This document shows positions 3,963 to 63,957 of a stretch of 64,000 nt of DNA, piece by piece. The translations under genes and the position numbers were made by a program. A model generated the notes under the pieces. The model was not told the DNA's origin, made no database searches, and worked only from the letters and a program-made list of their open reading frames with translations. Source of the stretch: Rhodocyclales bacterium (GTDB lineage: Bacteria > Pseudomonadota > Gammaproteobacteria > Burkholderiales > Rhodocyclaceae); assembly GCA_026399435.1 (NCBI GenBank), contig JAPLQX010000029.1, positions 1 to 64,000 on the forward strand, in the 5' to 3' direction. Each line of letters begins with the position of its first letter. Within the stretch, counting starts at the first letter, position 1.

Positions 3963-5446
3963 CCATGACGACGTCCATGATGATGACTCTGCACGAGGCT
4001 GCCGCCGCCATCGCTGCCCGCACACAGGGCGCCGACGCAGGCTTCAGCGCCGTCTCCACCGATTCGCGCAGCATCGCTGCCGGCGAACTCTTCGTCGCGT
4101 TGAAGGGCGACAAGTTCGACGGCCATGCCTACGTCGGCGACGTCCTCGCGCGCGGCGCGGCCGGTGCCGTGGTGAGTGAGGGATTCGCCGCCGCCCATCC
4201 GGATCTGCCGCTGATCTGCGTTGCCGACACGCGCCTGGCGCTGGGTGCGCTGGCGGCGCAGTGGCGCGGGCGCTTTGCGCTGTCGCTGCTGGGCATCACC
4301 GGCAGCAATGGCAAGACCACGGTGAAGGAAATGTGCGCGGCGATTCTGCGCGCGCAGTTCGGCAGCGCTGATGCCGTCCTCGCTACCATCGGCAACCTCA
4401 ATAACGACATCGGCCTGCCGTTGACCCTGCTCAGGCTGCGCACAACGCACCGTGCCGCGGTGATCGAGATGGGGATGAACCATCCCGGAGAGATCGACTA
4501 TCTGACGCGCCTCGCGCAACCTTCTGTGGCACTGGTGAACAACGCCCATCGCGCACACCTGGAGGGCCTCGGCTCGGTGCAGGATGTCGCGCTGGCCAAG
4601 GGCGAAATATTCGCCGGCCTGGCTGCCGACGGCGTCGCGGTGTTCAATGCCGACGACGCACATGCCGGTGTCTGGCGCGAACTTTCGCGTGACCGGCGTC
4701 AGCTGACCTTCGGCCTCGACCAGCCCGCCGACGTGCAAGGACAGTTCACCAGTCACGGCCTCGGCGGGGAACTGCGTTTGAGCACGCCGTGGGGAGCGCT
4801 CACCGTGACGCTGGCCGTGCCGGGCAGCCACAACGCCCGCAATGCCTGTGCAGCAGCGGCGGCGACACTGGCGGCAGGCGCGTCGCCCGCCGCGGTCGAA
4901 CAGGGACTCACAAGCTATGCCGGCATCAAGGGTCGCCTGCAACAGCGCGCCGGCCGCGAGGGCTCGCGCGTGGTGGATGACAGCTACAACGCCAATCCCG
5001 ATTCGATGCGCGCCGCGATCGACGTGCTGGCGTCGGTGCCGGGCCGGCGCATCCTGGTCATGGGCGACATGGGCGAGGCGGGGGCCGCTGCAGGGCAGTT
5101 CCACGACGAGATCGGCGGCTACGCCAAGAGCCACGGCATCGACCGCCTGCTCTGCCTGGGCGAATTGTCGGCGGCGGCGGCACACAACTTCGGCGAGGGC
5201 GGCCAGCACTTTCCGCGCGTCGAGGATCTGATCAAAACACTGCTGACCGAGCTCGAGCCGCAGACCACGGTGCTGGTCAAGGGCTCGCGCTTCATGCGCA
5301 TGGAGCGCGTCGTCGACGCGATCGTGGACAGCGCCGACGCCGGGCCGTCCCAAGGCGGCGCAAGCCATCAACCGGAGCGGGCGCAGCCCGCGAACAGCCG
5401 TCACCCCCTTCCCGGGGAAGGGGGCGGGGGAAAGGTAAATGAATAA
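3959..5446 (+). CDS. murF: UDP-MurNAc-tripeptide-D-Ala-D-Ala ligase MurF with a repeat-derived tail
   Basis: This ATP-dependent ligase joins D-Ala-D-Ala to the UDP-MurNAc-tripeptide. The ATP loop is GSNGKTT and the Mur ligase hallmark [13 protein letters not shown] is intact. The GTG at 3959 overlaps the murE stop; an ATG two codons later (3965) is an alternative. The conserved protein ends near [10 protein letters not shown]. About 35 further residues, low in complexity and rich in Pro, Gly and Gln, follow, and the last part is encoded by a GC-rich palindromic repeat (5400-5436). That tail is probably not functional MurF sequence. Confidence 0.96.
5400..5436. repeat. Palindromic repeat, single-hairpin copy A (3' end of murF)
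   Basis: A GTCAC end is followed by a near-perfect palindrome (5404-5424, arms CCCCCTTCCC and GGGGAAGGGGG) and a purine-rich tail. It resembles one half of the full element seen at 14407-14490 and 63877-63957. It lies inside the murF reading frame and encodes the residues [13 protein letters not shown] before the stop. The similarity was judged by eye, so the boundaries are approximate. Confidence 0.75.
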
Positions 5447-6615
5447 TGCTGCTTGAACTCGCTCAATGGCTGGCCAAGGATCTCCGCGCCTTCAACGTCT
5501 TCGGCTACATCACGCTGCGCGCGGTGCTGGCGACCATGACCGCGCTGGCGATTTCCTTCGTCTTCGGTCCGGCGGTGATCCGCTGGCTGGCGGCCAAGAA
5601 GATCGGCCAGTCGGTGCGCACCGACGGACCGCAGACGCATCTGGTCAAGGCCGGCACGCCGACCATGGGCGGCGCGCTGATCCTGATTTCGCTCGGTGTG
5701 TCCACGCTGCTGTGGGCGGATCTTTCCAACCGTTTCATCTGGATCGTGCTGATCGTCACCTTCGGCTTCGGCGCGATCGGCTGGGTCGACGACTGGCGCA
5801 AGGTGGTTTACCGCAATCCTGCCGGACTCTCGGCTCGCTCCAAGTTCTTCTGGCAATCTGTGGTGGGCCTGATCGCCGCGATCTATCTCGCATTTTCGAT
5901 CTCGGCGCCCAACAACGAAAAGGTCGTCCAGCTGTTCTTCCAGTGGGTATCGAGCGGCTTCACGCTGGAGCTGCCGCAGCAGACCGCCCTGATCGTGCCC
6001 TTCTTCAAAAGCGTGACCTACCCGCTAGGCATGTTCGGCTTCATCCTGCTGACCTACCTGGTGATCGTCGGCAGCAGCAATGCGGTGAACCTGACCGACG
6101 GCCTCGATGGCCTCGCGATCATGCCGACGGTGCTGGTCGGCGCCGCGCTGGGCATCTTTACCTACGTTGCCGGCAACTCGGTGTTCTCCAAATATCTGCT
6201 GCTGCCCTATATCCCGGGCGCCGGCGAGCTGACGGTGTTCTGCGGCGCGCTGGCCGGCGCCGGCCTCGGCTTTCTGTGGTTCAACGCCTATCCCGCCGAA
6301 GTCTTCATGGGCGACGTCGGCGCGCTGGCCATCGGTGCGGCGCTCGGCGCGGTGGCCGTGGTCGCGCGCCAGGAGATCGTGCTGTTCATCATGGGTGGCG
6401 TGTTCGTCGCCGAGACCCTGTCGGTGATGCTCCAGGTCGGCTACTTCAAGTACACCAAGAAGCGCTACGGCGAAGGCCGGCGGATCCTGCTCATGGCGCC
6501 GCTGCACCATCACTTCGAACAGACCGGATGGAAGGAGACGCAGGTGGTGGTGCGCTTCTGGATCATCACGATTCTGCTCGTGCTGTTCGGCTTGTCGACG
6601 CTGAAGATACGATGA
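5446..6615 (+). CDS. mraY: Phospho-MurNAc-pentapeptide transferase MraY
   Basis: This polytopic membrane enzyme (389 residues, about ten hydrophobic segments) transfers phospho-MurNAc-pentapeptide to undecaprenyl phosphate to make lipid I. Family signatures are [32 protein letters not shown] and the histidine-rich MAPLHHHFE. The ATG shares a base with the murF TAA stop (TAATG), and the stop overlaps the murD ATG, so the gene is tightly coupled on both sides. Confidence 0.97.
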
Positions 6616-8105
6616 ATCTCGCCGGCAAACACGTCCTCGTTCTCGGCCTCGGTGAATCGGGGCTGGCCTCCGCGTGCTGGTGCGCGCGGCAGGGCGCACG
6701 GGTGCGGGTGGCCGATACGCGTACGGCACCACCGTATCTGGACGAGTTGAATCGCCGTGTCGCCAGTGCCGACTCCCGGGTCGAATTCGTTGCCGGCGAG
6801 TTCGACAAGGCACTGCTCGACGGCATCGACCTGCTGGTGCTGTCGCCGGGTCTCTCGGGCGGTCTGATGGTGGTGATTCATGCGCGCGCCGCCCGGATTC
6901 CGGTGGTCGGCGAAATCGAATTGTTCGCCCAGGGCTTGCGCAGCCTGGACTCGGTTGCACCGGTGCTGGCGATCACCGGCACCAACGGCAAGACCACCAC
7001 CACCGCGTTGACCGGGCATCTGCTGCGCGCCACGGGCAAGACGGTCGGTGTTGCCGGCAACATTTCCCCCGCGGCGCTCACGGCATTGATGGATGCGCTG
7101 GATGCGGATGCCCTGCCGCAGATCTGGGTGCTGGAGCTGTCCAGTTTCCAGCTGGAAACCACCGAGACGCTGAATGCCGCTGCCGCAACGGTGCTCAATA
7201 TTTCCGACGACCATCTCGATCGCTACATCGATCTCGACGAATACGCATCGGCCAAGGCCAAGGTCTTTCAAAGCGCCGAGGGTGCGCCTGGCGTCCAGGT
7301 GCTGAATCGTGCCGATCCGCGCGTCTGCCGGATGGCGCTGGCGGACCGTCACATCATCAGCTTCGGCCTCGACGCTCCCGCCGGCGAGGATGATTTCGGC
7401 CTGCGCGAGAACCGCGGTGAAGCCTGGCTGGTGCAGGGCCAGCGGCTCCTGTTACCGGTTTCCGAGTTGCCGCTGGCCGGGCTGCACAATGCGGCCAACG
7501 CCATGGCGGCGCTGGCGCTGTGCAGCGCGCTCGGTTTCGATGCCGCAGCCTTGCTGCCGGCCTTGCGCAGCTTCCGCGGCCTGCCGCACCGGGTCGAGCG
7601 GGTGGCCGAGATCGACGGCGTGACCTGGTATGACGATTCCAAGGGCACCAACGTCGGCGCCACGGTCGCCGCACTGAATGGCATTGGCGGCCAACTGGCC
7701 GCCCTGAATAGTCACCTCCCTCCCCCGGGGAGGGAGGTCGGGAGGGAGGGCTCGTCGTCGACGCCTTGCGCTCCGAAGGATCGCAAGATCGTGGTGATCC
7801 TGGGCGGCGACGGGAAAGGGCAGGATTTTTCTCCGCTTGAGAAAGCCGTGGCGAGGCACGCGCGAACCGCAGTGCTGATCGGGCGCGACGGGCCGCTGAT
7901 CGAGAAGGCAATCATCGGCGCCGGGGTGGCGATCGAAAACGCAGCCGACATGGGTGATGCCGTGCGGCGGGCGCGGCGACGGGCGCAGCCTGGCGACGCC
8001 GTGCTGCTGTCGCCGGCCTGCGCCAGCTTCGACATGTTCCGCAATTACGAGCATCGGGCGCAGGTATTCGTCGCCGCAGTGCGCGCACTGGAGAGCGAAG
8101 CGTGA
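6612..8105 (+). CDS. murD: UDP-MurNAc-L-Ala:D-Glu ligase MurD with an internal repeat insertion
   Basis: MurD adds D-glutamate to UDP-MurNAc-L-Ala. The ATP loop is GTNGKTTTT, and the conserved [17 protein letters not shown] and [13 protein letters not shown] segments are present. Between those two segments, which normally lie only a few residues apart, about 25-28 extra residues appear ([15 protein letters not shown] and flanks). They are encoded by a palindromic repeat at 7711-7750. The frame stays open through it, giving 497 residues against a usual 445-470. The site falls on a loop near the central/C-terminal domain junction, so folding could be tolerated. The ATG overlaps the mraY stop. 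Confidence 0.96.
7711..7750. repeat. Palindromic repeat, single-hairpin copy B (inside murD, in frame)
   Basis: A GTCAC end is followed by a perfect 12-bp inverted repeat (arms ACCTCCCTCCCC and GGGGAGGGAGGT, one-base centre, 7714-7738) and a tail CGGGAGGGAGGG. It matches the right half of the full element in ftsQ. It is translated in frame inside murD. About 30 bases further on, a GTCGAC...TTGCGC pattern also resembles the sequence flanking the ftsQ copy, so the mobile unit may be longer than the hairpin. Confidence 0.82.
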
Positions 8106-9265
8106 GTCGCGCCTATGCCGCGCCGGCGCAGCACGCGCCCGCCGAACTCGACGCCTTCCTGCTGTGGCCGGCGGTTGGCCTGCTGCTGCTGGGATTGGTG
8201 ATGGTGTATTCGTCCTCGATCGCGATGGCCGAGGGCAGCCGCTTCACCGGCAACCAGTCGGCCTATTTCCTGTTCCGCCATGCGGTGTTTCTCGCCGTCG
8301 GACTGGTCGCCGGCGTGATGGCTTTCCAGATCCCGTTGCGCCTGTGGCAGCAGGCGGCGCCCTGGCTGTTCCTGACCGGAGTCGTGCTGCTGCTGCTGGT
8401 GTTGATTCCTCATGTCGGCCGTTCGGTCAACGGCGCCCAGCGCTGGATCGGCCTCGGTCCGATCAACCTGCAGCCATCCGAACTGATGAAGCTCTTCGTC
8501 GTGCTCTACGCCGCCGACTACACGACGCGCAAGCTCGACGACATGGGCAGTTTCCTGCGCGGCTTCGGGCCGATGGCGCTGGTCATGGTGCTGGTCGGCG
8601 CCCTGCTGCTGAGAGAGCCGGATTTCGGCGCGCTGGTGGTGATCCTTTGCATCGCCACCGGCATCCTGTTTCTCGGCGGCATCAATGCGCGGGTGTTCGG
8701 CGTGCTGGTGGTGGTCCTGGCGGTCAGCTTCGTCATCATGATCTGGGTTTCGCCCTACCGGCGCGAGCGCATTTTCGGTTTCATGGATCCCTGGCAGGAT
8801 GCCTTCGGCAAGGGCTACCAGCTCTCGCACGCCCTGATCGCCTTCGGCCGCGGCGAGTGGTTCGGCGTCGGGCTCGGCGCCAGCGTCGAGAAGCTGTTCT
8901 ATCTGCCCGAGGCACACACCGATTTCCTGCTGGCGGTGATTGCCGAGGAACTCGGCTTTGTTGGTGTCTGCGTCGTAGTCGGGCTGTTCGCCCTGCTGGT
9001 GCAGCGCTCCTTCGCCATCGGCCGCCAGGCGCTGGTGCTCGGCCGCGTGCATTCCGGCCTGGTCGCACAAGGCATCGGCATCTGGCTCGGCGTGCAGGGT
9101 TTCATCAACATGGGCGTGAACATGGGCCTGTTGCCGACCAAGGGCCTCACCTTGCCGCTGATGAGCTTCGGCGGCTCGGGCATCGTGGCGAACTGTTTGG
9201 CGCTGGGAATTCTGCTGCGGGTCGATTGGGAAAATAGGCAATTGATGAGAGGTCAGCAGGTATGA
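8102..9265 (+). CDS. ftsW: Septal peptidoglycan glycosyltransferase FtsW
   Basis: This SEDS-family membrane protein of 387 residues has about ten transmembrane helices. Recognisable SEDS segments are [46 protein letters not shown] and the C-terminal [10 protein letters not shown]. FtsW polymerises lipid II at the septum together with FtsI. It starts with GTG overlapping the murD stop and ends in an ATGA overlap with murG. Confidence 0.96.
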
Positions 9266-10320
9266 GCAAGACCCTTCTCGTCATGGCCGGCGGCACGGGC
9301 GGGCACATCATGCCGGGCCTTGCCGTGGCCGAGCACCTGCGCGAGCAGGGCTGGAAGATCGCCTGGATGGGCAATCCGGATGGCATGGAGACGCGCCTGA
9401 CCACGGGGCGCGGCTACGAGATGGCCTGGGTGCACTTCACGGCGCTGCGCGGCAAGGGCCTGCTGCGCAAACTGCTGCTGCCCTTCAACCTGCTGCGCGG
9501 CTTCAGTCAGGCGTGGTCGCAGCTCAAGCGCATCCGGCCCGACGTGGTCCTCGGCATGGGCGGCTATGTCAGCTTTCCCGGAGGCATGATGGCCGTGCTG
9601 CGGGGCATTCCGCTGCTGCTGCACGAGCAAAATTCGGTGGCCGGCCTCGCCAACCGCGTACTGGCGGGAGTTGCCGATCGCATTCTCAGCGGCTTTCCCG
9701 AGGTGCTGAGGAAGGCTACCTGGGTCGGCAATCCGGTGCGTCCGGAAATCGCCGCCTTGCCGGCGCCGACTGTTCGCTACGCGCAGCACAACGGCCCGTT
9801 ACGGGTGCTGGTGGTAGGCGGCAGCCTCGGCGCGCAAGCCCTGAACGAGGTCCTGCCGAAGGCGCTGGCGCTGATAGCGGAAGACCGGCGACCGGCGGTG
9901 CTGCACCAGGCGGGCGAGAAGCATCTGCCGATGCTGAAAAGCCTCTACCTCTCGGCGGGTGTTCAGGCCGACTGCGTGGCCTTCATCAACGACATGGCCG
10001 GCGCTTACGACTGGGCCGATCTGGTGATTTGTCGCGCTGGCGCGCTGACCGTAGCGGAACTGGCGGCAGCCGGCGTCGCCAGCCTGCTGGTGCCCTTCCC
10101 GCACGCGGTCGATGACCACCAGACCTCGAACGCGCGCTTTCTCAGCACGGCCGGCGCCGCGATCCTGCTGCCGCAGGACGAGATGACGCCGGCGCGGTTG
10201 GCCGAGATTGCGAATCTGCCGCGTCAGCAACTCGCCCAGATGGCCGAAAAGGCCCGTGAGCTGGCGCGGCCCGACGCGACGGCGGCCGTGGCGCAGGCCT
10301 GCGCGGAACTGGCCAAATGA
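9262..10320 (+). CDS. murG: UDP-GlcNAc:lipid I GlcNAc transferase MurG
   Basis: MurG converts lipid I to lipid II at the inner face of the membrane. This GT-B enzyme of 352 residues has the N-terminal glycine loop [11 protein letters not shown], a second glycine motif [13 protein letters not shown], and donor-site segments [15 protein letters not shown] and [14 protein letters not shown]. It overlaps ftsW by 4 nt, and murC starts 10 nt after its stop. Confidence 0.97.
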
Positions 10321-10330
10321 AAGGCACGCC

Positions 10331-11761
10331 ATGAAACATAAAGTCAAACGCATCCACTTCGTCGGCATCGGCGGTTCCGGCATGTCGGGCATCGCCGAGG
10401 TGCTGGCGAATCAGGGCTTCGAGGTCAGCGGCTCCGATCTCGGCGAGAGCGCGACGACGCGCCGCCTGGCGGCGCTGGGCATCCGCATCGCGATCGGCCA
10501 CAGCGCGCAGAACGCCGCAACGGCCGATGCAGTCGTGGTGTCCACCGCTGTGCGCGAAGACAACCCGGAAGTGCAGATGGCACGCGAGCGCCGCGTGCCG
10601 GTGGTGCCCCGGGCGCAGATGCTGGCGGAGCTGATGCGCATCAAGCAGGGCATCGCGATTGCAGGCACCCATGGCAAGACGACGACGACCAGCCTGGTAG
10701 CCAGCCTCCTGGCCGAGGGCGGCCTCGATCCGACCTTCGTCATCGGCGGCCGGCTGAATTCCGCGGGCGCCAATGCGAAGCTGGGCAGCGGCGAATTCCT
10801 GGTGGCCGAGGCCGACGAGTCGGATGCCTCTTTCCTCTATCTGTCGCCCGTGGTTTCAGTGGTCACCAACATCGACGCCGATCACATGGAAACCTACGGC
10901 CACGATTTCGGCCGGCTGAAGCAGGCCTTCGTCGATTTTCTGCACCGGCTGCCCTTCTATGGCGTCGCCGTGGTCTGCGGCGACGATCCGAATGTGCGCG
11001 AAATCATCCCCCGCGTGGCGAAGCAGATCGTCACCTACGGGATCGACAACGAGGCCAACTTCCGCGCCGAAGATGTGGTGGCCGACGGCGGCACGATGCG
11101 CTTTACCTGCGTGCGCACCAACGGCGGCGTCAGTCGTCTGCCAATCGTGCTCAATCTGCCGGGGCGGCACAATGTGCTCAACGCGCTGGCCGCCATTGCG
11201 GTGGCGACAGAAGTCGGCGTTGGCGACACGGCGATCATCAGGGCACTGGCCGAGTTCCGCGGCGTCGGCCGGCGCTTCCAGCGCTACGGCGAGCTTGCCT
11301 GTCCTGCCGGCGGCAGCTTCACCCTGGTCGATGACTACGGCCATCATCCGGTGGAAATGGCCGCGACGCTGGCTGCGGCGCGCGGCGCTTTCCCCGGTCG
11401 CCGGCTGCTGCTGGCGTTTCAGCCGCATCGCTACACGCGCACGCGGGATTGTTTCGAGGACTTCGTCAAGGTGCTGTCCGGGGTCGATGCGCTGGTGCTC
11501 GGCGAAGTGTATGCCGCCGGCGAGGCGCCGATCATCGCCGCCGACGCCCGCGCGCTGGTGCGTGCCTTGCGCGTTGCCTGCGCGCAAAGCGCCATTCCAG
11601 GCATGCAAGGCACCGGCAAGGTGGAGCCGATTTTCGTCGAAGACATAGCGGCCATGCCGGCAGCGATTCTCGCCGCCGTGCGTGACGGCGACGTGGTGAT
11701 CACCATGGGCGCCGGTTCCATCGGCGGCGTGCCAGGGCGATTGAGCGGGGCAGCTGCATGA
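10331..11761 (+). CDS. murC: UDP-MurNAc-L-alanine ligase MurC
   Basis: MurC adds L-alanine to UDP-MurNAc, the first step of stem-peptide synthesis. The protein has 476 residues. The N-terminal UDP-binding motif is [17 protein letters not shown] and the ATP loop is [10 protein letters not shown]. The middle domain shows [14 protein letters not shown] and the C-terminal domain [11 protein letters not shown]. The ATG at 10331 places the motif at the usual distance from the N-terminus. The stop overlaps murB. Confidence 0.97.
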
Positions 11762-12681
11762 CCGAGTCCGTCCGGGGCGCGCTGCGCGAATTCGAGCCGA
11801 TGGCCAGCCATGTCTCATGGCGCACCGGCGGAGCCGTGGCACGTGGATTCTTCCCGGCGGACCTGGCGGATCTCGCTGTCTTCCTGCATCTGATGCGCCA
11901 CGACGAGCCCGTGCTGATGGTGGGCCTCGGCAGCAATCTGCTGGTGCGCGACGGCGGCTTCGACGGCACGGCGATCTTCACCCACGGCGTGCTCGATGTC
12001 CTGCGGCGGGAAGCGGACGGCAGCTTCTACGCCGAAGCCGGGGTCGCCTCGCCGAAACTGGCCCGCTTTGCCGGCAGGCAGGGCTGCGCCGAAGCCGAGT
12101 TCCTCGCCGGCATTCCCGGCACGGTGGGCGGCGCGCTGGCGATGAATGCCGGCTGCCATGGCGGCGAGACCTGGCGCTATGTGGAACGGGTGCTGATGCT
12201 GAATCGCAATGGCGAGCAGATCATTCGCGGTCCCGAGGATTTCGCCATCGGCTACCGCCACGTTGGCCTGAAAGCAGCCACCGATGAAGTATTCGCTGCC
12301 GCCTGGTTCCGCTTTCCGGAGGGCAACGCCGAGGTCGCCGCAGCGCGTCTGCGCGAACTGCTGGAACGACGCATTGCCACGCAGCCGCTGCAATTGCCGA
12401 ATGCCGGCTCGGTGTTCAGGAATCCGCCCGGCGACCATGCGGCACGCCTGATCGAGGCCGCTGGCCTCAAGGGCACACAGATCGATGGCGCGCAGGTTTC
12501 CGAAAAGCATGCGAATTTCATCGTTAATCCAGACGGCAAGGCGAGCGCTAGTGCGATAGAAATGCTAATCGGCCGGATTCAGGCGGAAGTAGCGGAAAAA
12601 TTCGGTGTTGCCCTGGTGTGCGAGGTGCGCATCGTGGGCGAGGTCGACAGGCAGTCAGGGCAGGGCGGAGAAGGAGTTTGA
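11758..12681 (+). CDS. murB: UDP-N-acetylenolpyruvoylglucosamine reductase MurB
   Basis: This FAD-dependent reductase makes UDP-MurNAc from the enolpyruvyl precursor. The 307-residue protein shows the FAD-binding segments [14 protein letters not shown] and [16 protein letters not shown], the catalytic-serine region [10 protein letters not shown] and the C-terminal EKHANFIVN. The short form fits type II-like MurB. It overlaps both murC and ddl. Confidence 0.96.
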
Positions 12682-13589: not shown

Positions 13590-14538
13590 GGCGCGCGGAA
13601 ACCCGACAGGCAAGGGCCGGGGCAACAGCCGGATCGAAAACGGCGGCGACGGCTTCTGGGATCGCCCGATGCTGATCAACCTGCTGGCCGATGTACTGCT
13701 GCTCGCGGGTGGCGCCTTGCTGGCATGGTCTGGCGCCATGGCACTGCAGCGCTTGCCCGTGTTCCCTCTGAATCAGCTGGTGGTGGCGACGCCGCTCGAC
13801 CAGGTGTCGCGGGCGCAGATTGAACAAACGGCGCACAATGTCCTGACGGGGAACTTTTTCACGGTGAATCTGGAAACGGCACAGAGCGCTTTCCAGCAGA
13901 TGCCCTGGGTGCGCTCGGCCTCGCTGCGCCGTCGCTGGCCGGACGGAATCGAACTGGAACTCGAAGAACATCGCGCTGCCGGTCGCTGGACCCCGAAGGA
14001 AGGCGAGTCGCGCCTGGTCAGCACGCGCGGCGAAGTATTCATGGCGGCCACGTCCGACAAGGCGCTGCCCGTATTTGCCGGCCCCGAGGGTTCGGCAAGC
14101 CGTGTGCTGGCGCGCTACCAGGAGTTCAACGACAGCCTGGCGGCGATCGGCCGCAAGCCGGTCGCCATTCATCTTTCGGCGCGCGAGGCCTGGCAAATCA
14201 GGCTCGACGATGGCGTGCTGCTCGAATTGGGCCGCGACCAGCCCAGGCACCCGCTGCTCGACCGCCTGAATCGATTCACGACCCACTATGCAGCCGTGAG
14301 CAGCTCGGCCAGGAGCCGCCTGCAAACCATCGGCGTGGTGGATATGCGTTACCCCAATGGATTCGCCCTCAGGGGGATAGCTGCGCTATCCCCCGAGGGG
14401 AAATTGCGCCCCCCATCCCCCTTCCCCCGCCCCGGGGCGGGGGTGACTAGTCACCTCCCCCGCCTGGCGGGGGAGGCAGGGAGGGGGTGTGGTCGACTAC
14501 TGGCGCTTGCGCCGGACGGCCAGGCGGAGGCAGCATGA
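13582..14538 (+). CDS. ftsQ: Cell division protein FtsQ with a repeat-derived C-terminal tail
   Basis: This bitopic division protein has one transmembrane segment (about residues 33-52), then POTRA and beta domains that dock FtsB/FtsL. The GTG at 13582 is chosen because GGAGG lies 6 nt upstream and it overlaps the ddl stop. Family-typical sequence ends at [12 protein letters not shown]. The last roughly 54 of 318 residues (Pro/Gly/Arg-rich, for example [11 protein letters not shown]) are encoded by hairpins of a palindromic repeat. The appended tail adjoins the region that binds FtsB in E. coli. Confidence 0.93.
14367..14398. repeat. GC-rich stem-loop at the start of the ftsQ tail
   Basis: Arms CCTC-A-GGGGGATAG and CTATCCCCC-GAGG form a 13-bp stem with one bulged A around the loop CTGCG. 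It directly precedes the dispersed repeat in the ftsQ tail and marks where family-typical FtsQ sequence stops. It may be a separate repeat type or the outer arm of the same composite insertion. Confidence 0.7.
14407..14490. repeat. Palindromic repeat, full two-hairpin copy C (3' end of ftsQ)
   Basis: Two perfect hairpins flank a palindromic joint. Hairpin one is CCCCCGCCCC/GGGGCGGGGG (14424-14443). The joint is GTGACTAGTCAC (14443-14454). Hairpin two is CCTCCCCCGCC-T-GGCGGGGGAGG (14454-14476). Pyrimidine-rich and purine-rich tails lie outside. The reverse complement of the copy at the right edge of the window has the same layout with a joint differing by one base. The whole copy is translated as part of FtsQ. 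Confidence 0.88.
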
Positions 14539-53030: not shown

Positions 53031-53050
53031 TCGTATTCCAGGAGTGATCC

Positions 53051-54897: not shown

Positions 54898-54936
54898 CAG
54901 GACGCACAACATAACAATCCCCAAGGAGACAGCATC

Positions 54937-55815: not shown

Positions 55816-56696
55816 AAATAGGCTTCATCGGCCTGGGTGCCATGGGGGCGCCGATGGTCGGACATCTGCTGCGTGCGGGATACTCCGTGGGCGTATGGAG
55901 CCGCCGTGCTGCCAGCGCCGACTCCGTGGTCGCCCTGGGTGCGATGCGGTGCGCGTCGCCCGCCGAGGTCGCGCGCGATGCAGGGATTGTCTGCACCAAT
56001 GTCACCGGCAGCGCCGATGTGGAGGGACTGGCCTTTGGCCCGCAGGGCTTGGCCCAAGGCTTTGCCGCAGGCAGCCTGCACGTCGATTTTTCCACCATCG
56101 CGCCGTCCGCCGCGCGCCGCATCGCGGCACGCTACGCCGCGCACGGCGTCGACTTCGTCGATGCTCCGGTGTCGGGTGGCAGCGCTGGCGCTCAGGGTGC
56201 CACGCTGGCCATCATGTGGGGCGGAGAGTCGGCGCTGGCGACACGCCTGCAGCCGATCTTCGACGTGCTCGGCAAGACCGTTGTGCATGTCGGCGCGACG
56301 GGCGCCGGGCAGGTGGCCAAGGCCTGCAACCAGATGGTGATGGTAGCAGCGATCGAAGCGGCAGCGGAAGCGGCGCGGCTGGCGGCCGCTGCCGGCATCG
56401 ACTTTGCCAGGGTTCGCGCCGCGATGCTGCATGGCTCGGCCGGCTCGCGGGTGCTGGAGGTGTTCGGTGGCCGCATGGCGACACGCGAGTTTGCGGCGGG
56501 CGTCGAAGCACGGCTGCATCACAAGGACTACGCACTGCTGCTGGACGAAGCAACGCGGATCGGCGTGCCTTTGCCGATGTCGGCCGCCGTAGGGCAGCAA
56601 TTGAACGCGTTGATGGCTCTGGGCTGGGGGAGGGATGACACATCATCGCTGCTGCGCGTGCTCGAAACAGGCGACCAACGGCGTCCGGCACAATGA
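55812..56696 (+). CDS. Beta-hydroxyacid dehydrogenase family oxidoreductase, copy 2
   Basis: This 294-residue paralogue of the preceding gene shows the same motif set: GFIGLGAMGAPMVG, FVDAPVSGGSAG and GQVAKACNQMVM. The two differ widely outside the motifs, so the duplication is old and substrates probably differ. It overlaps its neighbours on both sides by 4 nt, which places it in one transcript with the c-di-GMP gene downstream. Confidence 0.9.
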   Translation: MKIGFIGLGAMGAPMVGHLLRAGYSVGVWSRRAASADSVVALGAMRCASPAEVARDAGIVCTNVTGSADVEGLAFGPQGLAQGFAAGSLHVDFSTIAPSAARRIAARYAAHGVDFVDAPVSGGSAGAQGATLAIMWGGESALATRLQPIFDVLGKTVVHVGATGAGQVAKACNQMVMVAAIEAAAEAARLAAAAGIDFARVRAAMLHGSAGSRVLEVFGGRMATREFAAGVEARLHHKDYALLLDEATRIGVPLPMSAAVGQQLNALMALGWGRDDTSSLLRVLETGDQRRPAQ

Positions 56697-59269
56697 GCAG
56701 CGGTGCGGTCGTGCGGCCACCGAAGAAAGCCGTACTCGAGCTCAACGCGATTTTCGAGAACGCCACGGTCGGCATTCTGTTCACCCACAATCGGCGGCTG
56801 ATTCAGGCCAATCGCCTGTGTGCGGAGATGTTCGGTTACTCGCTGGACGAATTCATCGACCAGTCTGCGCTGATTCTCTATGCCGACCAGGAAGCCTACT
56901 CCGCGCTAGGACGCGAGGCCGGCCCGGTGCTCGCCGCCGGGCGTTCTTTTCGCGCCGAGACTCGGCTCAAGCGCAAGGATGGCAGCCTGTTCTGGTGCCG
57001 TGTTTCGGCCAAGGCGGTCGATCCAGAGCATCCCCGGGATGGCACCCTGTGGATCATCGAGGACATCGCCGAAGACCGCTTGATGATCGAAGCGCTCGAA
57101 GGCAGCACGCGCGAGCTGTCGGCCATCCTGGATACGGCTTCGGCAGGCATTGCGGTCGTGCGCAATCGCGTCTTCGTTCGTAGCAATCGTCGTTTCGAAG
57201 AAATACTGAATCTGCCGGCGGGATCGCTGGTGGGCCAGTCCGTACGACGCATGTTCAACAGTGACGAGGAATTCCAGCGTATTGGCGAAGAGGTCTATGC
57301 CGAGTTTTCCGCTGGTGAGGTGCATCGGCGCGAGCAGGCCTATCTGCGCGGCGACGGCGGGACGGTTTGGCTGCGCATCAGCGGCAGCGCCTTCGATGCG
57401 GCGAACCCCCACGCCGGTTCGGTCTGGCTGATCGAGGACTTCACTGCCACGCGCGAGGCTGAAGAGCGTGCGCGGCAGGCCTTCGACGAGCAGCAGCTGA
57501 TTTTCGACAATGCAGCGATGGGTATCCTGTTTGTGCGGGACCGCGTGGTGCAGCGCTGCAATCGCAGGCTGGCGGAGATCTTCGGCTACCGGCCGGAGGA
57601 ACTGACGGGACGTTCGACCCACGTGTTCTATCTCACCGAAGAGGACTACCAGCGCGACGGCGTCCTGGTCGAGCCGGTCGTCAGGGAAGGTCGAACGCAT
57701 ATTGGCGAGAACCGGGTGCGCCACAAGGATGGCCATGCGTTCTGGGTGCGTACCACCGGGCGGCGCGTCGACACCGAGAACGACAGCGTCATCTGGATAG
57801 TCGAGGACGTGACGGAGCGCCATCAGGCGGAGGAGGCGCTGCTGCGCGCCCATGACGAACTGGAGCAGCGCGTGGTTGAGCGCACTGCCGAGCTGGCAAC
57901 TGCCAATACGCAGTTGCAGGAGGAGGTGTTCGAGCGGATGCAGGCCGAGCAGCGCATCTGGCATGTCGCCCACCACGACAGCCTGACCGGCCTGCCCAAT
58001 CGCACCCTGCTGCATGACCGGCTGCAGCAGGCCCTGGCGCAGGCGCAGCGCGGCCGGCATCGTGTCGCGGTGATGTTTCTGGATCTCGATCGGTTCAAGA
58101 CCATCAACGATACCCTCGGCCACGCCGTCGGCGATGAGCTGTTAAAGCAGGTGGCAGAGCGCTTGAGCAGCGTGGTGCGGGCAGTCGATACCGTGTCGCG
58201 CCTGGGCGGCGATGAGTTCGTCGTCGTCCTCCACGAAATGTCCTCGCCTGATGATGTGGTACAGGTAGCGGAAAAGATTCTGCAGGCGCTGGCGACCGTG
58301 GCGACGATCGACGGCCACCAGTTGCACGTCACCTCGTCGATCGGCATCAGCATTTTCCCCGATGACGGTGACGAGGTTTTCGCCCTCATGAAGAATGCCG
58401 ATACGGCGATGTATCGCGCCAAGGCGGCCGGGCGAAACAACTTCCAGTTCTTTGCGCTCAAGATGAACGAGCAGGCCTCGCACTTCTTCACGCTCGAGAA
58501 CAGGCTGCGCGAGGCGATCGGCACACGCCAACTGGTCCTGCACTATCAGCCCCTGGTCGACTGGCCGCGCCGCGCCGTGTGCGGCATGGAGGCGCTGGTG
58601 CGCTGGAACGACGCGGAGCAGGGGCTGATCGATCCGGGCGAGTTCATTGCGGTCGCCGAGGAAACCGGGCTCATCGTGCCGCTGGGTGAATGGGTGCTGG
58701 GCGAGGCGCTGCGGCAGAATAGCGTCTGGCAGCAGGAGGGGCGGCCGCTTCTGCCCATCTCGGTCAACCTCTCGCTGCGTCAGTTCCGGCAGAAGGATCT
58801 GGTCGAGACCCTGCGCCGCATCCTGGCCGACACCGGGCAGCCGGCCCGGCTCCTGGAACTCGAAATCACCGAGACGACTCTGATGCACGACATCGAAGAT
58901 GCCCGGGCCAGGCTGCAGGAAATTGCCGCCATGGGTGTGCGGCTGGTCATCGATGACTTCGGCACGGGTTATTCGAGCCTGAGTTACCTCAAGCGCTTTC
59001 CGGTGCATAAGCTGAAAATCGACCAGAGTTTCGTGCGTGACCTCAACGTCGATCCCGATGATGCGGCGATCGTCACGGCGATCATCGGACTGGCCAGGAG
59101 CCTGGGCCTCGACACGCTGGCCGAGGGCGTGGACACCCGCGAGCAGCTCGATGCCCTGCTCGGACTCGGCTGTGAGAAGTTTCAGGGATTTCTGTTCTCG
59201 CACCCGCTGCCGCCAGCCGAGGCCGATCGAATCTTCGGACCGGTGCTGGGGCCGGGCTCTCGGGCATAA
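56693..59269 (+). CDS. PAS-GGDEF-EAL bifunctional c-di-GMP protein
   Basis: The 858-residue cytosolic protein has three PAS/PAC units (about residues 15-385), a coiled-coil linker ([20 protein letters not shown]), then GGDEF and EAL domains. RLGGDEF is intact with an RxxD I-site (RAVD) before it. The EAL domain has [22 protein letters not shown] and KIDQSFV. Both activities look competent. It is coupled to the upstream dehydrogenase by a 4-nt overlap. Confidence 0.92.
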
Positions 59270-59270
59270 T
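59265..59270 (+). promoter_or_regulatory. -10 box for the FKBP gene
   Basis: CATAAT overlaps the stop codon of the preceding gene and lies 36 nt before the FKBP start. No -35 box was identified. Confidence 0.35.
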
Positions 59271-59306
59271 GCGCAGATCGATAAATTACCAACATGGAGT
59301 AGCGCA

Positions 59307-59651
59307 ATGAGTCAGATCACCACGGCCAGCGGCCTCGTCATCGAAGAATTGCTTGTCGGCGAAGGTGCAGAAGCCTGCGCCGGGCAGACCGTTAGCGTGC
59401 ATTACACGGGCTGGCTGACGAACGGTTCGAAATTCGATTCGAGCAAGGATCGCAATGAGCCTTTCGAGTTCCCGCTCGGAGGTCGCTACGTGATTGCCGG
59501 CTGGGACGAGGGCGTGCAGGGGATGAAAATCGGCGGCAAGCGCAAGCTGACGATCCCGCCAGCGCTCGGCTACGGCGCTCGCGGCGCGGGTGGCGCGATT
59601 CCGCCCAATGCGACGCTGGTGTTCGAGGTGGAACTGCTCGGACTGAATTGA
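59307..59651 (+). CDS. FKBP-type peptidyl-prolyl cis-trans isomerase
   Basis: This 114-residue single-domain FKBP lacks a signal peptide, so it is cytosolic. The full fold is visible: [18 protein letters not shown], the active-site [20 protein letters not shown] and [26 protein letters not shown] 59307 has GGAG 7 nt upstream; the open frame further upstream is a shadow of the GGDEF-EAL gene. Confidence 0.95.
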
Positions 59652-59694
59652 TTTTCAGGAGGGAGGACAGCGCGCCCCGGTCCTCTCGCCCGCC

Positions 59695-60867
59695 ATGAAC
59701 CTCTTCCTTCCTTCCCGTCTGCCGAACGTCGGCACCACGATTTTTACCGTCATGTCGCGGCTGGCCGCGGAACATGGTGCGATCAACCTGTCGCAGGGCT
59801 TTCCCGACTTTTCCCCGTCGCCGCTCCTGCTCGATCGTGTCACGCATCACATGGCGGCTGGCGCCAACCAGTATCCACCCATGGCCGGTGTCCCCTCGTT
59901 GCGCGAGGCCATTGTCGAAAAGGTCGCGCGGCTGTATCTCGCCACCTATGACCCTGAAACCGAAGTGACTGTGACGGCCGGGGCGACCCAGGCGATCTAC
60001 ACGGCCATTGCTGCCTGCGTCCGGCCGGGCGACGAGGTGATCGTGTTTGCGCCGGTCTATGACTCCTACGTGCCCGGCATCGATCTCAATGGCGGCCACG
60101 CCGTGTTTGCCCATTTGCGCTTTCCCGAGTTCAAGCCTGATTGGGACGAAGTCCGCGCGTTGATCACGCCTCGCACGCGCATGATCATCATCAATTCACC
60201 GCATAACCCGAGCGGGTCGGTATGGTCGGCCGACGACATGGCGATGCTGGAATCCCTGGTGCGGGACACGAAGATCGTCGTTGTCAGCGACGAGGTCTAC
60301 GAACACGTGGTGTTCGACCAGAAGCAAGACGGGAATGGAATGCTGGGACACCAAAGCGTGACCCGCTATCCCGGGCTGCGCGAGCGCAGCTTCGTCGTTT
60401 CCAGTTTCGGCAAGACCTATCACGTGACCGGCTGGAAGGTCGCCTACTGTTTGGCGCCGCGCGCCTTGATGAACGAATTTCGCAAGGCCCACCAGTTCAT
60501 CGTATTCACCGTGCATCATCCGGCGCAGCTCGCGCTCGCCGATTTCATGCGCGAACACCCGGAGTTCGCTGATCAGTTGGCCGCCTTCTATCAGGCCAAG
60601 CGTGATTTCTTCCGCAAGCAGCTCGAGGGCTCGCGTTTTGTTCTGCTGCCCTGTGCCGGCACTTACTTCCAGCTGGCAACCTACGCCGCGATCAGCGACG
60701 AACCGGATACGCGCTTTGTCCAGCGTCTGACCACCGAACACGGCGTCGCGGCGATTCCCGTTTCGGCCTTCAATCCGGACGGCGAAGATCAACGCGTGAT
60801 TCGTTTTTGCTTTGCCAAGAACGAGACCACGCTGGCGGCGGCCGGCGAACGCCTGCGGGCGCTCTAG
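59695..60867 (+). CDS. PLP-dependent aminotransferase, methionine aminotransferase (YbdL)-like
   Basis: This 390-residue class I/II aminotransferase has the N-terminal GAINLSQGFPDF, NSPHNPSGSVWS, and the PLP lysine in SSFGKTYHVTGWK. The pattern fits the YbdL/kynurenine aminotransferase group, which transaminates methionine and aromatic amino acids. It follows the FKBP gene by 43 nt and converges on the phasin gene. Confidence 0.9.
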   Translation: MNLFLPSRLPNVGTTIFTVMSRLAAEHGAINLSQGFPDFSPSPLLLDRVTHHMAAGANQYPPMAGVPSLREAIVEKVARLYLATYDPETEVTVTAGATQAIYTAIAACVRPGDEVIVFAPVYDSYVPGIDLNGGHAVFAHLRFPEFKPDWDEVRALITPRTRMIIINSPHNPSGSVWSADDMAMLESLVRDTKIVVVSDEVYEHVVFDQKQDGNGMLGHQSVTRYPGLRERSFVVSSFGKTYHVTGWKVAYCLAPRALMNEFRKAHQFIVFTVHHPAQLALADFMREHPEFADQLAAFYQAKRDFFRKQLEGSRFVLLPCAGTYFQLATYAAISDEPDTRFVQRLTTEHGVAAIPVSAFNPDGEDQRVIRFCFAKNETTLAAAGERLRAL

Positions 60868-60960
60868 CGTCGCCGTACCACCAGCGCCGACTTTCGACAC
60901 CGTCCGCGCTCGAATGGACTGGGCTTTGCCCGCCTGGGATTCCGCTTCGCGGGCAGGCGA

Positions 60961-60993
60961 AAAAAGACCCGACGCCTTGCGGGGTCGGGTCTG
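60961..60993 (-). terminator. Intrinsic terminator of the phasin gene
   Basis: On the minus strand a 9-bp stem (AGACCCGAC / GTCGGGTCT) is followed directly by TTTTTT, 48 nt after the phasin stop. A second, weaker hairpin (TGCCCGC / GCGGGCA, 60927-60955) lies beside it and may serve the convergent aminotransferase. Confidence 0.8.
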
Positions 60994-61041
60994 AAACCAG
61001 CCCTTTTGCGGGGCCGGAGGAGGAGACGTTACGAAAGTCGC

Positions 61042-61605
61042 TTAGGCGGCTTTCTTGGCCTTCGGCGCAGCGGCGCTGGTGCCGACAGCTTTGACGGTCG
61101 CGGTAGTAGCAGCGGCGACGTTGGCTTCAGCGATTTCGGCGACTTGCTTGGCAGCCTTGGTCATGCTGTCGTAAGCCGAGTTGGCGGCGGCAATCGCCGA
61201 CTTCACGGCAGCCACGGCGACATCGGAACCAGCCGGGGCGTTCTTGGCGGCCTTGTCGAGGGCGGAAGCGACATTCTTGTTGATTTCGGAGAACTGGCCT
61301 TCGACGACTTTGGACAGTTCTTCCTGGGTCTGGGTGGCGATCTCATACACGCTGCGCGAGTAGGCGACGGCTTTTTCGACAGCGGGCTGGGCCAGCGTGG
61401 TTTGCATGGCGATCAGTTGCTGTACGTCCTTGACGCCGAGCAGAGCCTTGGCGTTGGCAACGCTGTCTTCCAGCATGGCGCGGGCGGTGTTGAGGTTCAG
61501 GGCGGCAAGGCGCTCGGCGCTGGCGAATGCCGTGTTGGCAATGGTCAGCATGGTTTCTACGTTGGCCTTGTTGGCGCTGGCGAATTGTTCGGTGGTGGCG
61601 TTCAT
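61042..61605 (-). CDS. phaP: Phasin PhaP
   Basis: This 187-residue, alanine-rich, helical protein coats polyhydroxyalkanoate granules. Family-type segments are MNATTEQFASANKANVETML, VQQLIAMQTTLAQPAVEKAV and an Ala/Lys-rich tail ending PKAKKAA. It stands alone between its own promoter and a strong terminator. An A/G-rich ribosome site (GGAGAAC) precedes the ATG. It implies the host makes PHA, though no phaC or phaA is in the window. Confidence 0.94.
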   Translation of the reverse strand: MNATTEQFASANKANVETMLTIANTAFASAERLAALNLNTARAMLEDSVANAKALLGVKDVQQLIAMQTTLAQPAVEKAVAYSRSVYEIATQTQEELSKVVEGQFSEINKNVASALDKAAKNAPAGSDVAVAAVKSAIAAANSAYDSMTKAAKQVAEIAEANVAAATTATVKAVGTSAAAPKAKKAA

Positions 61606-61685
61606 GGTGTTCTCCTGAGAATGAGTGTCGAAAAGGATTTCAGATTCGGTTTTTGTCGCTCACCCCCATGTGCCCGGGGCGATGT

Positions 61686-61694
61686 TGCAGTGCA
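61686..61694 (-). promoter_or_regulatory. TGCA-N-TGCA operator just downstream of the phaP start site
   Basis: TGCACTGCA (minus strand) lies about 5-13 nt downstream of the predicted phaP transcription start. It shares the TGCA-N-TGCA core with the centre of the palindrome upstream of the -35 box. The phasin regulator PhaR is known to bind TGC...GCA-type sites, so a repressor site is likely. Confidence 0.55.
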
Positions 61695-61705
61695 TCATGG
61701 TTCGT

Positions 61706-61733
61706 ATTATAGGGGTCAAAGCCGGTATGTCAA
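61706..61733 (-). promoter_or_regulatory. Sigma70 promoter of phaP
   Basis: TTGACA (61728-61733) and TATAAT (61706-61711), both perfect consensus boxes with a 16-bp spacer, lie about 100 nt upstream of the phaP start. This is the strongest promoter match in the window and fits the high expression of phasins. Confidence 0.85.
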
Positions 61734-61765
61734 GATTTTTTTGTGCAATGCACAAAAAAATCTTG
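61731..61765. promoter_or_regulatory. 35-nt perfect palindrome overlapping the phaP -35 box
   Basis: Two 17-nt arms (CAAGATTTTTTTGTGCA and its exact complement) surround one base. The inner core is TGCAATGCA, flanked by seven-base T and A tracts. Its promoter-proximal end overlaps the -35 box by 3 nt. It is most likely a regulator-binding site, with PhaR the obvious candidate. Confidence 0.8.
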
Positions 61766-61809
61766 AACGGAAGACAGTCGTTAGAAAACAGGTTGTTACA
61801 AAATAACAA

Positions 61810-61827
61810 AAGGCCCCGAAGGGCCTT
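61810..61827 (-). terminator. Intrinsic terminator after the enoyl-CoA hydratase gene
   Basis: A 7-bp stem (AAGGCCC / GGGCCTT) with a 4-nt loop is followed on the minus strand by TTTTGTTATTTTG. It lies 25 nt after the stop codon and separates this operon from phaP. Confidence 0.8.
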
Positions 61828-61851
61828 GGATGTTGCGGTGCGAAAGATAGC

Positions 61852-62628
61852 TTAGCGGTTGCGGAAGGCGGGCTTTCGCTTTTCGACAAAGGCCGTCATG
61901 CCTTCCTTCTGGTCGGCGAGGGCAAAAGCCGAATGGAAGGTGCGGCGCTCGAACAGCAGGCCTTCCTGCAGGCCTGACTCGTAGGCGCGATTGACGGATT
62001 CCTTGATCATCATGACGACCGGCAAGGAATAACCGGCGATGGTTTCCGCGGCCGCCAGGGTTTCCTCGAGCAGCCTGTCGGCGGCGATGACGCGCGCCAC
62101 CAGCCCGGCGCGTTCGGCCTCCTGGGCATCGATGAAACGGGCCGTGAGGCACATGTCCATGGCCTTGGCCTTGCTCACGGCGCGCGGCAGGCGCTGAGTG
62201 CCGCCGGCGCCGGGGATGACGCCGAGCTTGATCTCCGGCTGGCCGAACTTGGCGGTATCGGCCGCATAGATCATGTCGCACATCATGGCGAGTTCGCAGC
62301 CGCCGCCCAGGGCGAAGCCGGCAACCGCCGCAATGATCGGCTTGCGGCAGCGAGGGATGCGGTCCCAGTTGCGGCTGATGTAATTGGCCTGATAGACGTC
62401 CATGAAGTCCCAGCCGGCCATGGCGCCGATGTCGGCACCGGCGGCGAAGGCCTTTTCGGAACCGGTGATGACGATGCAGCCGATATTCGCGTCGCTTTCG
62501 AAACCATCCAGCGCGGCGCCGACCTCGTCGATCAGGGTGTCATTCAGCGCATTCATTGCCTTGGGCCGGTTGAGCGTGATGAGCCCGACCTTGCCGCGGA
62601 TTTCGGTGATGATGTTTTCGTAGCTCAC
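61852..62628 (-). CDS. Enoyl-CoA hydratase
   Basis: This 258-residue crotonase-fold enzyme hydrates short trans-2-enoyl-CoAs. The two catalytic glutamates are visible in [11 protein letters not shown] and [13 protein letters not shown], and the CoA oxyanion segment is AAGADIGAM. Its ATG overlaps the lptA stop by 4 nt, which is odd: the ABC ATPase gene lptB usually occupies this place. Substrate may be crotonyl-CoA, given the phasin next door, but this is inference. Confidence 0.93.
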
Positions 62629-63260
62629 TGCGCTGCCTCCTGACGGGGGATGGTGATGTTGGGTGCGCCTTTCAGCGGCGGCGATATGGCTGCTGCCGCG
62701 CGTGGCGGCGTTACGGCCCCGGCGTCCTTGTTCTTCGGCTGGATCACGGCACGCACGCGCTCGCCGCTTTCCGGGCGGGCGCGGGTTCCGTTGGGTCCGC
62801 TGGTGACAAAGTAGTTTTCGGACCTGGCGTCGTAGGAAATGAACTGGCCGCGAACTTCGTCGAGGCCGCTCTTGACCCAGGCGCGGTTGAAGAACTCGGT
62901 CTTTTCGGCCTTGGCATCGTGTTCGATGCGCTCGGCTTCGCCTTCGATGTACTCGTCCTGGCCCTCGCGCTTCTGGCGGAAGCGCGGCAGCGTTGTCGCG
63001 CTTCCGGTGGCGACGCCGCGCTGGTAGCCGTCGTCGTCCTGGGTGACGACGATACGCTCGGCGCGGATGGTCAGGGTGCCCTTGACCAGTTGCACGTTGC
63101 CCTCGAAGGTCTGGACCTTCTTCACGTCATCGACCGAGACCCGGTCGGCTTCAATATTGACCGGCTTGTCGCGGTCGGCCTTTTCGGCCTTTGCCACCGT
63201 TGCGGCGAGCGTTGCACCGGCAATGCCGGCAATGAAAGCGAGTCGAAGAAAAGGTTTCAT
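62625..63260 (-). CDS. lptA: Lipopolysaccharide transport periplasmic protein LptA
   Basis: LptA bridges the periplasm for LPS export. The 211-residue protein has a signal peptide (about residues 1-25, cleavage after AKA) and an OstA-type beta-jellyroll ([37 protein letters not shown]). A Pro/Ala-rich tail extends past the fold. It overlaps lptC by 4 nt and enoyl-CoA hydratase by 4 nt. Confidence 0.94.
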
Positions 63261-63832
63261 GGTGTCTCGGTCCGGTTGCGATGGAGGGTGCCGGTAACGC
63301 GGCCGCGCAGGACCGTGATGCCGGACCTGTTGTCAATGTCGAGTCCGGTGCCGTGCATGACGCTCTTGCCCTGGGAAATGACTACTGCATCCTTGGTGCT
63401 TCCCCTTTCGGCGTCGGGAAAGACCTTCAGGGTTCGGGTTTCAAGCACTGTGGGCGCTGAATCGCCCAATGCGCTGTGACGAATCACCCGCACCTCGTCG
63501 ACCAGATCGACTTCCTTGCCATCCCTGCCGATGTAGGCCATGCGGGCAGAGATCTCGGAAGGTGGTTGCTGATGGTAGGTGATGTGCGGCGTGGTGACGA
63601 TCGTCGTGTCGTCGTCAGGGTAATGCAGCAGCTTGGCGGCGACCAGGGTATGTTGCAGCTTGCCTTCGATGTCGAAGCGGCGCACCTCGAAGCGCTCCAC
63701 CCAGTAGTCGGGATCATGGCGCTGCGGCCCGCGCGGAGTGTCACCCTGGATCACCCGGTTGAGCCAGAAGGTGAGGGCGGCCAGCAGCAACAGCATGACC
63801 AGCGGGAAAAGGGAGGCGGCGCGATCCTTCAT
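63257..63832 (-). CDS. lptC: LPS export protein LptC
   Basis: This inner-membrane-anchored LPS transport protein has 191 residues. One transmembrane helix (about residues 8-26, FPLVMLLLLAALTFWL) is followed by a periplasmic jellyroll (PDYWVERFEVRRFDIEGKLQ, DTTIVTTPHITY). The ATG at 63832 is preferred; the frame stays open upstream only because it reads through a palindromic repeat. It is the first of lptC-lptA-enoyl-CoA hydratase. Confidence 0.93.
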   Translation of the reverse strand: MKDRAASLFPLVMLLLLAALTFWLNRVIQGDTPRGPQRHDPDYWVERFEVRRFDIEGKLQHTLVAAKLLHYPDDDTTIVTTPHITYHQQPPSEISARMAYIGRDGKEVDLVDEVRVIRHSALGDSAPTVLETRTLKVFPDAERGSTKDAVVISQGKSVMHGTGLDIDNRSGITVLRGRVTGTLHRNRTETP

Positions 63833-63876
63833 TGGTCTGTCGTCGGGCCGCCCGCGCTGTCGCGGGATAAGACTGG

Positions 63877-63957
63877 ACACCCCCTCCCATCCTCCCCCGT
63901 CTGGCGGGGGAGGTGACCAGTCACCCCCGCCCAATGGGCGGGGGATGGGGGGTGGGC
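63877..63957. repeat. Palindromic repeat, full two-hairpin copy D (upstream of lptC)
   Basis: Hairpin CCTCCCCCG/CGGGGGAGG (63891-63913), joint GTGACCAGTCAC (63913-63924) and hairpin CCCCCGCCC/GGGCGGGGG (63924-63944) are flanked by C-rich and G-rich tails. It is the reverse-complement arrangement of the copy in ftsQ, with a one-base difference in the joint. It lies about 45 nt upstream of lptC. The remaining bases to the window edge show no gene; kdsC would be expected beyond it. Confidence 0.88.

Follow-up and report, generated by a model that had tools for sequence, protein, structure and literature searches.

Repeats and cassettes in the window

The stretch analysed here (the window) comprises 64,000 nt, positions 1 to 64,000 of contig JAPLQX010000029.1 from the Rhodocyclales bacterium assembly GCA_026399435.1, in which hairpin-forming repeats with a GTCAC terminus lie within or next to genes such as murF, murD, ftsQ and lptC. 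The source genome is a draft of 2.88 Mb and 81% completeness, the compared genomes are drafts as well, and gene calls are reading frames, with MurD, MurF and FtsQ backed by Pfam and all other gene names assigned from translations; genomes and collected loci are cited by G and L numbers. An initial annotation had reported four copies of the repeat, at 5400-5436, 7711-7750, 14407-14490 and 63877-63957. All four were found at these positions and are real, but they are parts of a larger element, as the following features indicate.

5330..5446, plus strand: insert of about 116 bp forming a C-terminal tail of MurF and containing the 5400-5436 hairpin (left edge placed by eye)
7710..7751, plus strand: half unit inside MurD, made of AGTCAC, hairpin and G-rich tail, in frame
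14374..14534, plus strand: type-A cassette between ftsQ and ftsA, filled in 8 of 24 genomes (left edge placed by eye)
14405..14490, plus strand: core of the ftsQ-ftsA cassette, in which two half units meet head-to-head at GTGACTAGTCAC (14443-14454)
63829..63996, minus strand: type-A cassette at the kdsC-lptC junction, present in 4 of 24 genomes
63877..63957, minus strand: head-to-head core of the kdsC-lptC cassette, with the junction GTGACYRGTCAC (63913-63924)

The FtsQ frame runs through its cassette to a TGA overlapping the start of ftsA (ATGA at 14535). The kdsC-lptC cassette holds a mini open reading frame (mini-ORF) of its own, MNSLSPAPSGN...GGPTTDQ, which begins within the ATGA at the kdsC stop and closes with a TGA overlapping the lptC start (63832). 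The earlier claim that three of the four copies lie in frame within essential genes therefore holds for MurD, a true internal in-frame insert, but the MurF (5400) and FtsQ (14407) copies are C-terminal extensions ending on the next gene's start codon, and the fourth copy lies between kdsC and lptC within its own mini-ORF. Similarly, the two full copies are indeed head-to-head pairs of half units, yet they are cores of cassettes of about 160-200 bp and not complete elements, while the 5400 copy is only loosely related to the family, being part of an insert made of other hairpins. This MurF insert is present in G000, G005, G007 and G011 and missing from the other 8 of 12 genus genomes; the MurF stop TAA overlaps the mraY start (TAATG). 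What the initial annotation missed is the cassette, its sister type, its stop-to-start placement, the relay ORF and the stem covering the Shine-Dalgarno sequence.

Architecture and occurrence

The head-to-head form constitutes the core of the type-A cassette. Six such copies occur in the own genome, five with GTGACYRGTCAC and one with GTGATTAGTCAC at the junction, all oriented along transcription and located at ftsQ-ftsA, kdsC-lptC, fdx-iscX, EIIA-HPr of a phosphotransferase system, pilH-pilI, and O-antigen ligase-glycosyltransferase. The cassette's right end is GGCGGCCCGGCGGAGGC or a near variant followed by the start codon, terminating in GGAGGC-ATG. When this end alone was searched for in 26 genus genomes, 23 matched, and a shorter type B of about 115 bp came to light, which has its ends in common with type A and a different middle; both types were found at one junction in different species. 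At L293 and L294 (G175, G045), two consecutive cassettes stand ahead of one gene, with ATGA linking each to the next. Other palindromic repeats of about 60-75 bp are nested in cassette hairpins at L074, L090, L105, L181, L253, L265 and L304, and another nested palindromic repeat at L176, L233 and L249.

Thirty-eight half units align without gaps over 42 columns as AGTCAC, a 9-bp stem, a 3-base loop and a G-rich tail, with GTCAC invariant among copies that had partly been picked by that motif. A sequence model (R1) had matches in all 16 genus genomes and in none of nine others. Its at least 2 to at least 13 matches per genus genome are lower bounds, because only 150 of 1547-3546 candidates were scored in each. 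The proposal of a dispersed family built from head-to-head half units is supported, with copies exceeding the initial four. The 12-mer junction (GTGACTAGTCAC / GTGACCAGTCAC, at 14443-14454 and 63913-63924) is weak evidence by itself: it occurs at five places in the own genome versus none for a reversed control, but in relatives the reversed control is about equally frequent. The hairpin context, instead, is specific. It is present in 34 of 48 stretches matched in a sequence-database contig search (32 by filter, L060 and L076 by reading), 33 of which come from Sulfuritalea, Rhodocyclaceae/Rhodocyclales, Burkholderiaceae or beta-proteobacteria, and one from Candidatus Desulfobacillus denitrificans, which we take to be a beta-proteobacterium; the remaining 14 belong to other groups and lack the hairpins.

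Placement between stop and start codons

Cassettes span the gap from the upstream stop codon to the downstream start codon. The tail motif was searched without regard to genes in all collected loci, giving 90 distinct sites, at which a Shine-Dalgarno sequence is present by construction since the motif contains GGAG. A start codon with an open frame lies within 16 nt of the tail at 87 of the 90 sites, and 84 are also preceded by a stop codon that closes an open frame of 60 codons or more, the upstream "gene" being defined by this length and not by gene-by-gene inspection. Over these 84 sites (six dropped), an ORF that opens at most a few bases from the upstream stop and closes near the downstream start, i.e. 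a relay ORF, is found at 78. Its stop overlaps the start as RTGA in 64 cases and it ends from 6 nt before to 1 nt after the start's first base in 76, with the ORFs of L220 and L223 overrunning the start by 7 and 11 nt. Counted from the other end, the mini-ORF ends on the downstream start at 80 of the 84 sites and in 76 of these also begins at the upstream stop. At three folB sites the ORF has its own Shine-Dalgarno sequence and ends on the start, and at L233 the relay is present once the right upstream stop is used.

The distance between the two overlaps obeys a frame rule. The RTGA-to-RTGA spacing, for which frame was not a criterion, could be measured at 62 of the 84 sites, and 60 of these give 2 mod 3. 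Grouped by independent downstream gene, 38 of 40 follow the rule (P = 2.6e-16 against an expectation of one third), and grouped by distinct length, 18 of 20 do (P = 2.3e-7); the count by length carries the greatest weight, since length is passed on from copy to copy. Seven mini-ORFs checked singly (lengths 107-200) are likewise all 2 mod 3 and all end on ATGA. The relay frame is stop-free up to the downstream start in 67 of the 78 sites and stops just before it in the rest, compared with 37 and 19 of 78 for the other two forward frames. Furthermore, the FtsQ read-through occurs with six different lengths (173-260 bp), all stopping on ATGA, and mini-ORF or FtsQ tail stays open through every nested repeat checked. 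L222 and L271 use a different frame and still end on ATGA. At kdsC-lptC of G001, the frame is displaced by a nested repeat, and the 3' end lacks one base relative to G000, G017 and G023, which returns the stop of the displaced frame to ATGA. A mini-ORF ending on the downstream start in a conserved frame, the hallmark sought for a coupling device, is thus present.

A search with the short mini-ORF gave 17 matches in the own genome; ten were inspected, six of which have the tail and five of these six the relay. It is present in 6 of 300 genomes of the order including the own one, and of the five non-genus genomes four belong to the same family and one to another; two of these five carry two consecutive copies.

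Probable insertion at stop/start overlaps

Several junctions are filled in some species and empty in others. Between fdx and iscX, 3 of 24 genomes are filled (G000 with type A, G014 with type B, G017 with a diverged short form in which the frame is kept), and 21 are empty with an ATGA or GTGA overlap; in G000 and G014, GAAATGA stands on either side of the cassette. At ftsQ-ftsA, 16 of the 24 genomes are empty, and six of the eight filled sites are fused to FtsQ, while G013 and G014 have separate mini-ORFs ending on ATGA. At kdsC-lptC (24 genomes read, G007 and G016 outside the count), the 20 genomes without a cassette comprise 17 where the genes overlap by four bases, G008 where the overlap is of another kind, and G012 and G020 with a different upstream sequence. 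These patterns of presence and absence point to insertion at stop/start overlaps.

Beyond fdx-iscX, the bases common to both cassette ends are mostly ATG(A) alone. Additional identity left of the ATG averages 0.83 bp versus 0.48 bp in shuffles (0 of 1000 as high), and to its right 1.06 versus 1.04 bp (365 of 1000). A long target duplication as a general rule was rejected, as few sites extend beyond ATG(A). Of the features of miniature inverted-repeat transposable elements (MITEs), ATG(A) is found at both ends and terminal inverted repeats are weak, as judged by eye.

A stem over the Shine-Dalgarno sequence

The type-B stem is formed by GGAGGCNNN and the nine bases that precede TTGGGGCGGCCCGGC. 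Its inner six pairs are near-invariant (5.47 of 6 paired, observed and shuffled alike), but the outer three vary among genes and covary, with 2.58 of 3 paired versus 1.48 (standard deviation 0.13) when arms are exchanged between sites, and 0 of 2000 shuffles reach the observed value (57 sites, 36 distinct arm pairs, 54 downstream-gene clusters). In folding predictions, 43 of 53 type-B sites bury GGAG more deeply than do controls with shuffled upstream sequence. A corresponding burial in type A was not clearly supported.

Half units inside proteins

Half units also entered coding sequence, as initially proposed, and orthologous sites are empty in relatives. Within murD (6612-8105), the half unit encodes a 14-residue peptide in frame, and its stem differs from that of other copies by changes on both arms. 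A palindrome is present at this site in 7 of 15 genus genomes and absent from 8 (the split MurD of G006 outside the count), including G005, whose MurD is the closest (94% identical). The alternative that distant genera share the insert found no support, since none of five MurD genes from genomes of other families has it. In the predicted MurD model, the insert falls within residues 368-388, which have a predicted local distance difference test score (pLDDT) below 50 and form a loop leading from helix 348-367 to strand 393-399. A CCARTTGGC repeat occurs on both flanks of the insert in G007 and G013, and was not seen in the other genomes. Of 26 genomes, 2 carry a reversed, in-frame half unit in HrpA, and both CobT genes examined, those of G002 and G005, have an in-frame half unit. 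In-frame palindromes in a conserved protein with empty orthologues, as described for Rickettsia palindromic elements, are therefore found in MurD and HrpA.

Two further observations concern the MurD site. In G003 and G015 (L116, L117), the palindromic insert is tandemly duplicated, with one copy decayed. Beside the insert (window 7752-7830; L108, L110, L111, L116), G007, G011, G013 and G003 have an extra hairpin, the left arm of which repeats the neighbouring conserved MurD codons in inverted orientation; the hairpin sequence is species-specific yet (nearly) self-complementary, and the hairpin is weak in the window's own copy. To judge from its sequence, this hairpin looks like templated quasi-palindrome copying.

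Selection on the mini-ORF peptide

For short-type mini-ORFs at nine orthologous sites (27 short sequences), the pooled ratio of nonsynonymous to synonymous change per site (pN/pS) is 0.91, close to the 0.84 and 0.90 of shifted frames; over codons 1-38 of the downstream gene it is 0.19. By this measure the peptide is without sign of selection, with no excess of synonymous change. Mini-ORF peptides had no match in Pfam (four peptides) or NCBIfam (two peptides), and the mini-ORF none among plasmid sequences. The peptide itself seems immaterial; what appears to matter is an open frame ending at the right place.

A probable spacer preserving translational coupling

We consider it likely that these elements form a family of short mobile hairpin-built cassettes which, in Sulfuritalea-like Rhodocyclaceae, act as spacers preserving translational coupling via a relay ORF. 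This model builds on the insertion polymorphism, position, frame rule and covarying stem arms evident from genome comparison. According to it, the cassette would enter where an upstream stop overlaps a downstream start (ATGA, TGATG), and afterwards an overlap would exist at both ends, as the upstream stop overlaps or adjoins the mini-ORF start and the mini-ORF stop overlaps the downstream start. Ribosomes finishing the upstream gene would then restart on the mini-ORF, pass through the cassette and hand over to the next gene, in the short type after opening the stem covering the downstream Shine-Dalgarno sequence, so that operon coupling would survive the insertion. As variants, the relay is fused to the upstream protein (the FtsQ tail), and single half units also enter proteins in frame (MurD, HrpA, CobT). 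Translation of the mini-ORF, the ribosome handover and mobility by a transposase are what we infer. With slightly less than even confidence, we further propose a selfish element that targets stop/start overlaps, carries a meaningless but translated relay ORF and its own Shine-Dalgarno switch, and invades essential operons (division, cell wall, Fe-S, LPS, i.e. lipopolysaccharide) without breaking coupling, with half units of the same kind then seeding new protein loops and tails.

Several points weigh against a spacer of this kind. L272 is without a relay, and L263 has only a short inner ORF. The inner six stem pairs are uninformative in the shuffle test, whose statistic moreover ignores the relatedness of sites, and burial of the type-A Shine-Dalgarno sequence barely exceeds that in shuffles (0.23 versus 0.27; 11 of 16 sites). 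No transposase is tied to the cassettes, as far as the two Y1 genes of the own genome are concerned, and duplication beyond ATG(A) occurs at few sites. As many sites are common to several species, insertions are fewer than copies, and some cassettes could have been inherited, lost or moved by recombination. The per-site pN/pS spreads from 0.20 to 3.95 over the nine sites, one of which has no synonymous change. In addition, the mini-ORF shows less synonymous change (pS 0.13) than the downstream gene (0.33), implying that cassette DNA is constrained or homogenised as DNA, and variability is slightly higher at third codon positions (entropy 0.94 versus 0.79 and 0.73); weak peptide constraint may be compatible with these data.

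Bacterial mobile DNA often disturbs operons by polarity. If the model is true, an element that lets translation continue across it would represent a new way of living inside operons. The system makes it testable how strongly selection favours coupling, with the frame kept while the peptide drifts, and provides several empty and filled pairs, outside obligate intracellular bacteria, of palindromes turning into protein segments.

Relation to known systems

The layout required for coupling is known from ATGA/TGATG gene pairs, in which the upstream ribosome opens structure over the next gene's site or terminates and reinitiates there (PMC6728339); these are native pairs, however, and the word "transposon" is absent from that paper as far as it was covered. 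The ERIC (enterobacterial repetitive intergenic consensus) and YPAL (Yersinia palindromic) repeat units are similarly MITE-like, about 100-170 bp long, with open frames and fusions to the C-terminus of neighbours, but they duplicate TA at the target, and the passages covered hold no stop/start overlap or coupling (PMC2759123). The Betaproteobacterial repeat element (BRE), also from beta-proteobacteria, is about 90 bp long and GC-rich, with tandem copies and some in coding sequence (PMC3110155); the passages covered do not mention a relay, and BRE is a candidate relative compared by description only. Rickettsia palindromic elements likewise lie in frame in essential proteins, as summarised in parts of PMC3733652. 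Their host class is another, and the comparison is one by description. To our knowledge, no inter-gene relay cassette is among them. The coding inserts alone add one more member to a class already known, because REPs (repetitive extragenic palindromes) and ERIC-type repeats inside genes are described in the parts covered of PMC3733652 and PMC2759123. The titles and abstract openings of the literature surveyed, with subscription papers mostly outside, contain no description of a relay cassette or of Sulfuritalea repeats.

Alternative explanations

The cassette could instead be a cis-regulatory RNA, i.e. a leader resembling a riboswitch or thermometer that was copied to the operons requiring it, without any mobile spacer, and its covarying Shine-Dalgarno stem as well as its fixed orientation and place would suit such a role. 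However, no Rfam family scored above threshold (the window had no match at gathering level, and 19 loci gave four sub-threshold matches, taken as chance), and the downstream genes are unrelated and about 50 in number (51 clusters in the frame test, 54 in the stem test). The same junction is filled or empty among related species and can hold core A or B, and the frame rule would be unexpected for a pure RNA switch; we therefore regard this explanation as unlikely.

It seems more doubtful still that ordinary REP or BIME (bacterial interspersed mosaic element) sequences were moved by a REP-associated tyrosine transposase (RAYT), with the proximity to start codons being coincidental. A half unit with a conserved 5' tag and hairpin, paired head-to-head, is what such elements look like, and in the parts covered REPs resemble the present family in being short tagged hairpins with head-to-head dimers, in their in-frame inserts in unrelated proteins, even two in one gene, and in having Thauera among their hosts (PMC3733652). 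But the tags of the GTAG/CGTC superfamily at the hairpin foot contrast with (A)GTCAC here, the present unit is nested in a longer cassette, and REPs between codirectional genes lie near the upstream 3' end at a variable distance to the next gene, whereas cassettes keep a near-fixed distance to the start codon; no relay ORF appears in the parts covered (same source). The 87 of 90 tail sites abutted by a start codon, the frame rule and a copy number of at least 2 to at least 13 model matches per genus genome also speak against REPs. The own genome does have two Y1-transposase genes, and the one tested scored 69.6 bits on NCBIfam REP_Tyr_transpos (cut-off 80). These genes share terminal repeats (AACCAAAGGGGTCAGAGACATTTC-like) unrelated to the GTCAC hairpins, a repeat search around them did not find the GTCAC unit, and their flanks resemble the transposases flanked by terminal inverted repeats described in the parts covered of PMC3733652. 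As far as these two genes go, neither a RAYT-REP pair nor the RAYT engine considered in the initial annotation is supported. At L058:10277-12856 there are two tandem units, each with a lipoprotein-like gene and a Y1-type transposase, which have terminal repeats in common.

That the mini-ORF encodes a functional small protein and spreads as a gene in its own right, as its recurring peptide MTTFPPAPFPRKG...PPWGGPAEAA, the 17 own-genome matches, its presence in 6 of 300 genomes of the order and the low pN/pS at some sites (0.20, 0.35, 0.53) might suggest, is very improbable, given that the pooled pN/pS resembles that of shifted frames, that tested copies lack a Pfam or NCBIfam match, and that L222, L271 and kdsC-lptC of G001 use another frame and still end on ATGA.

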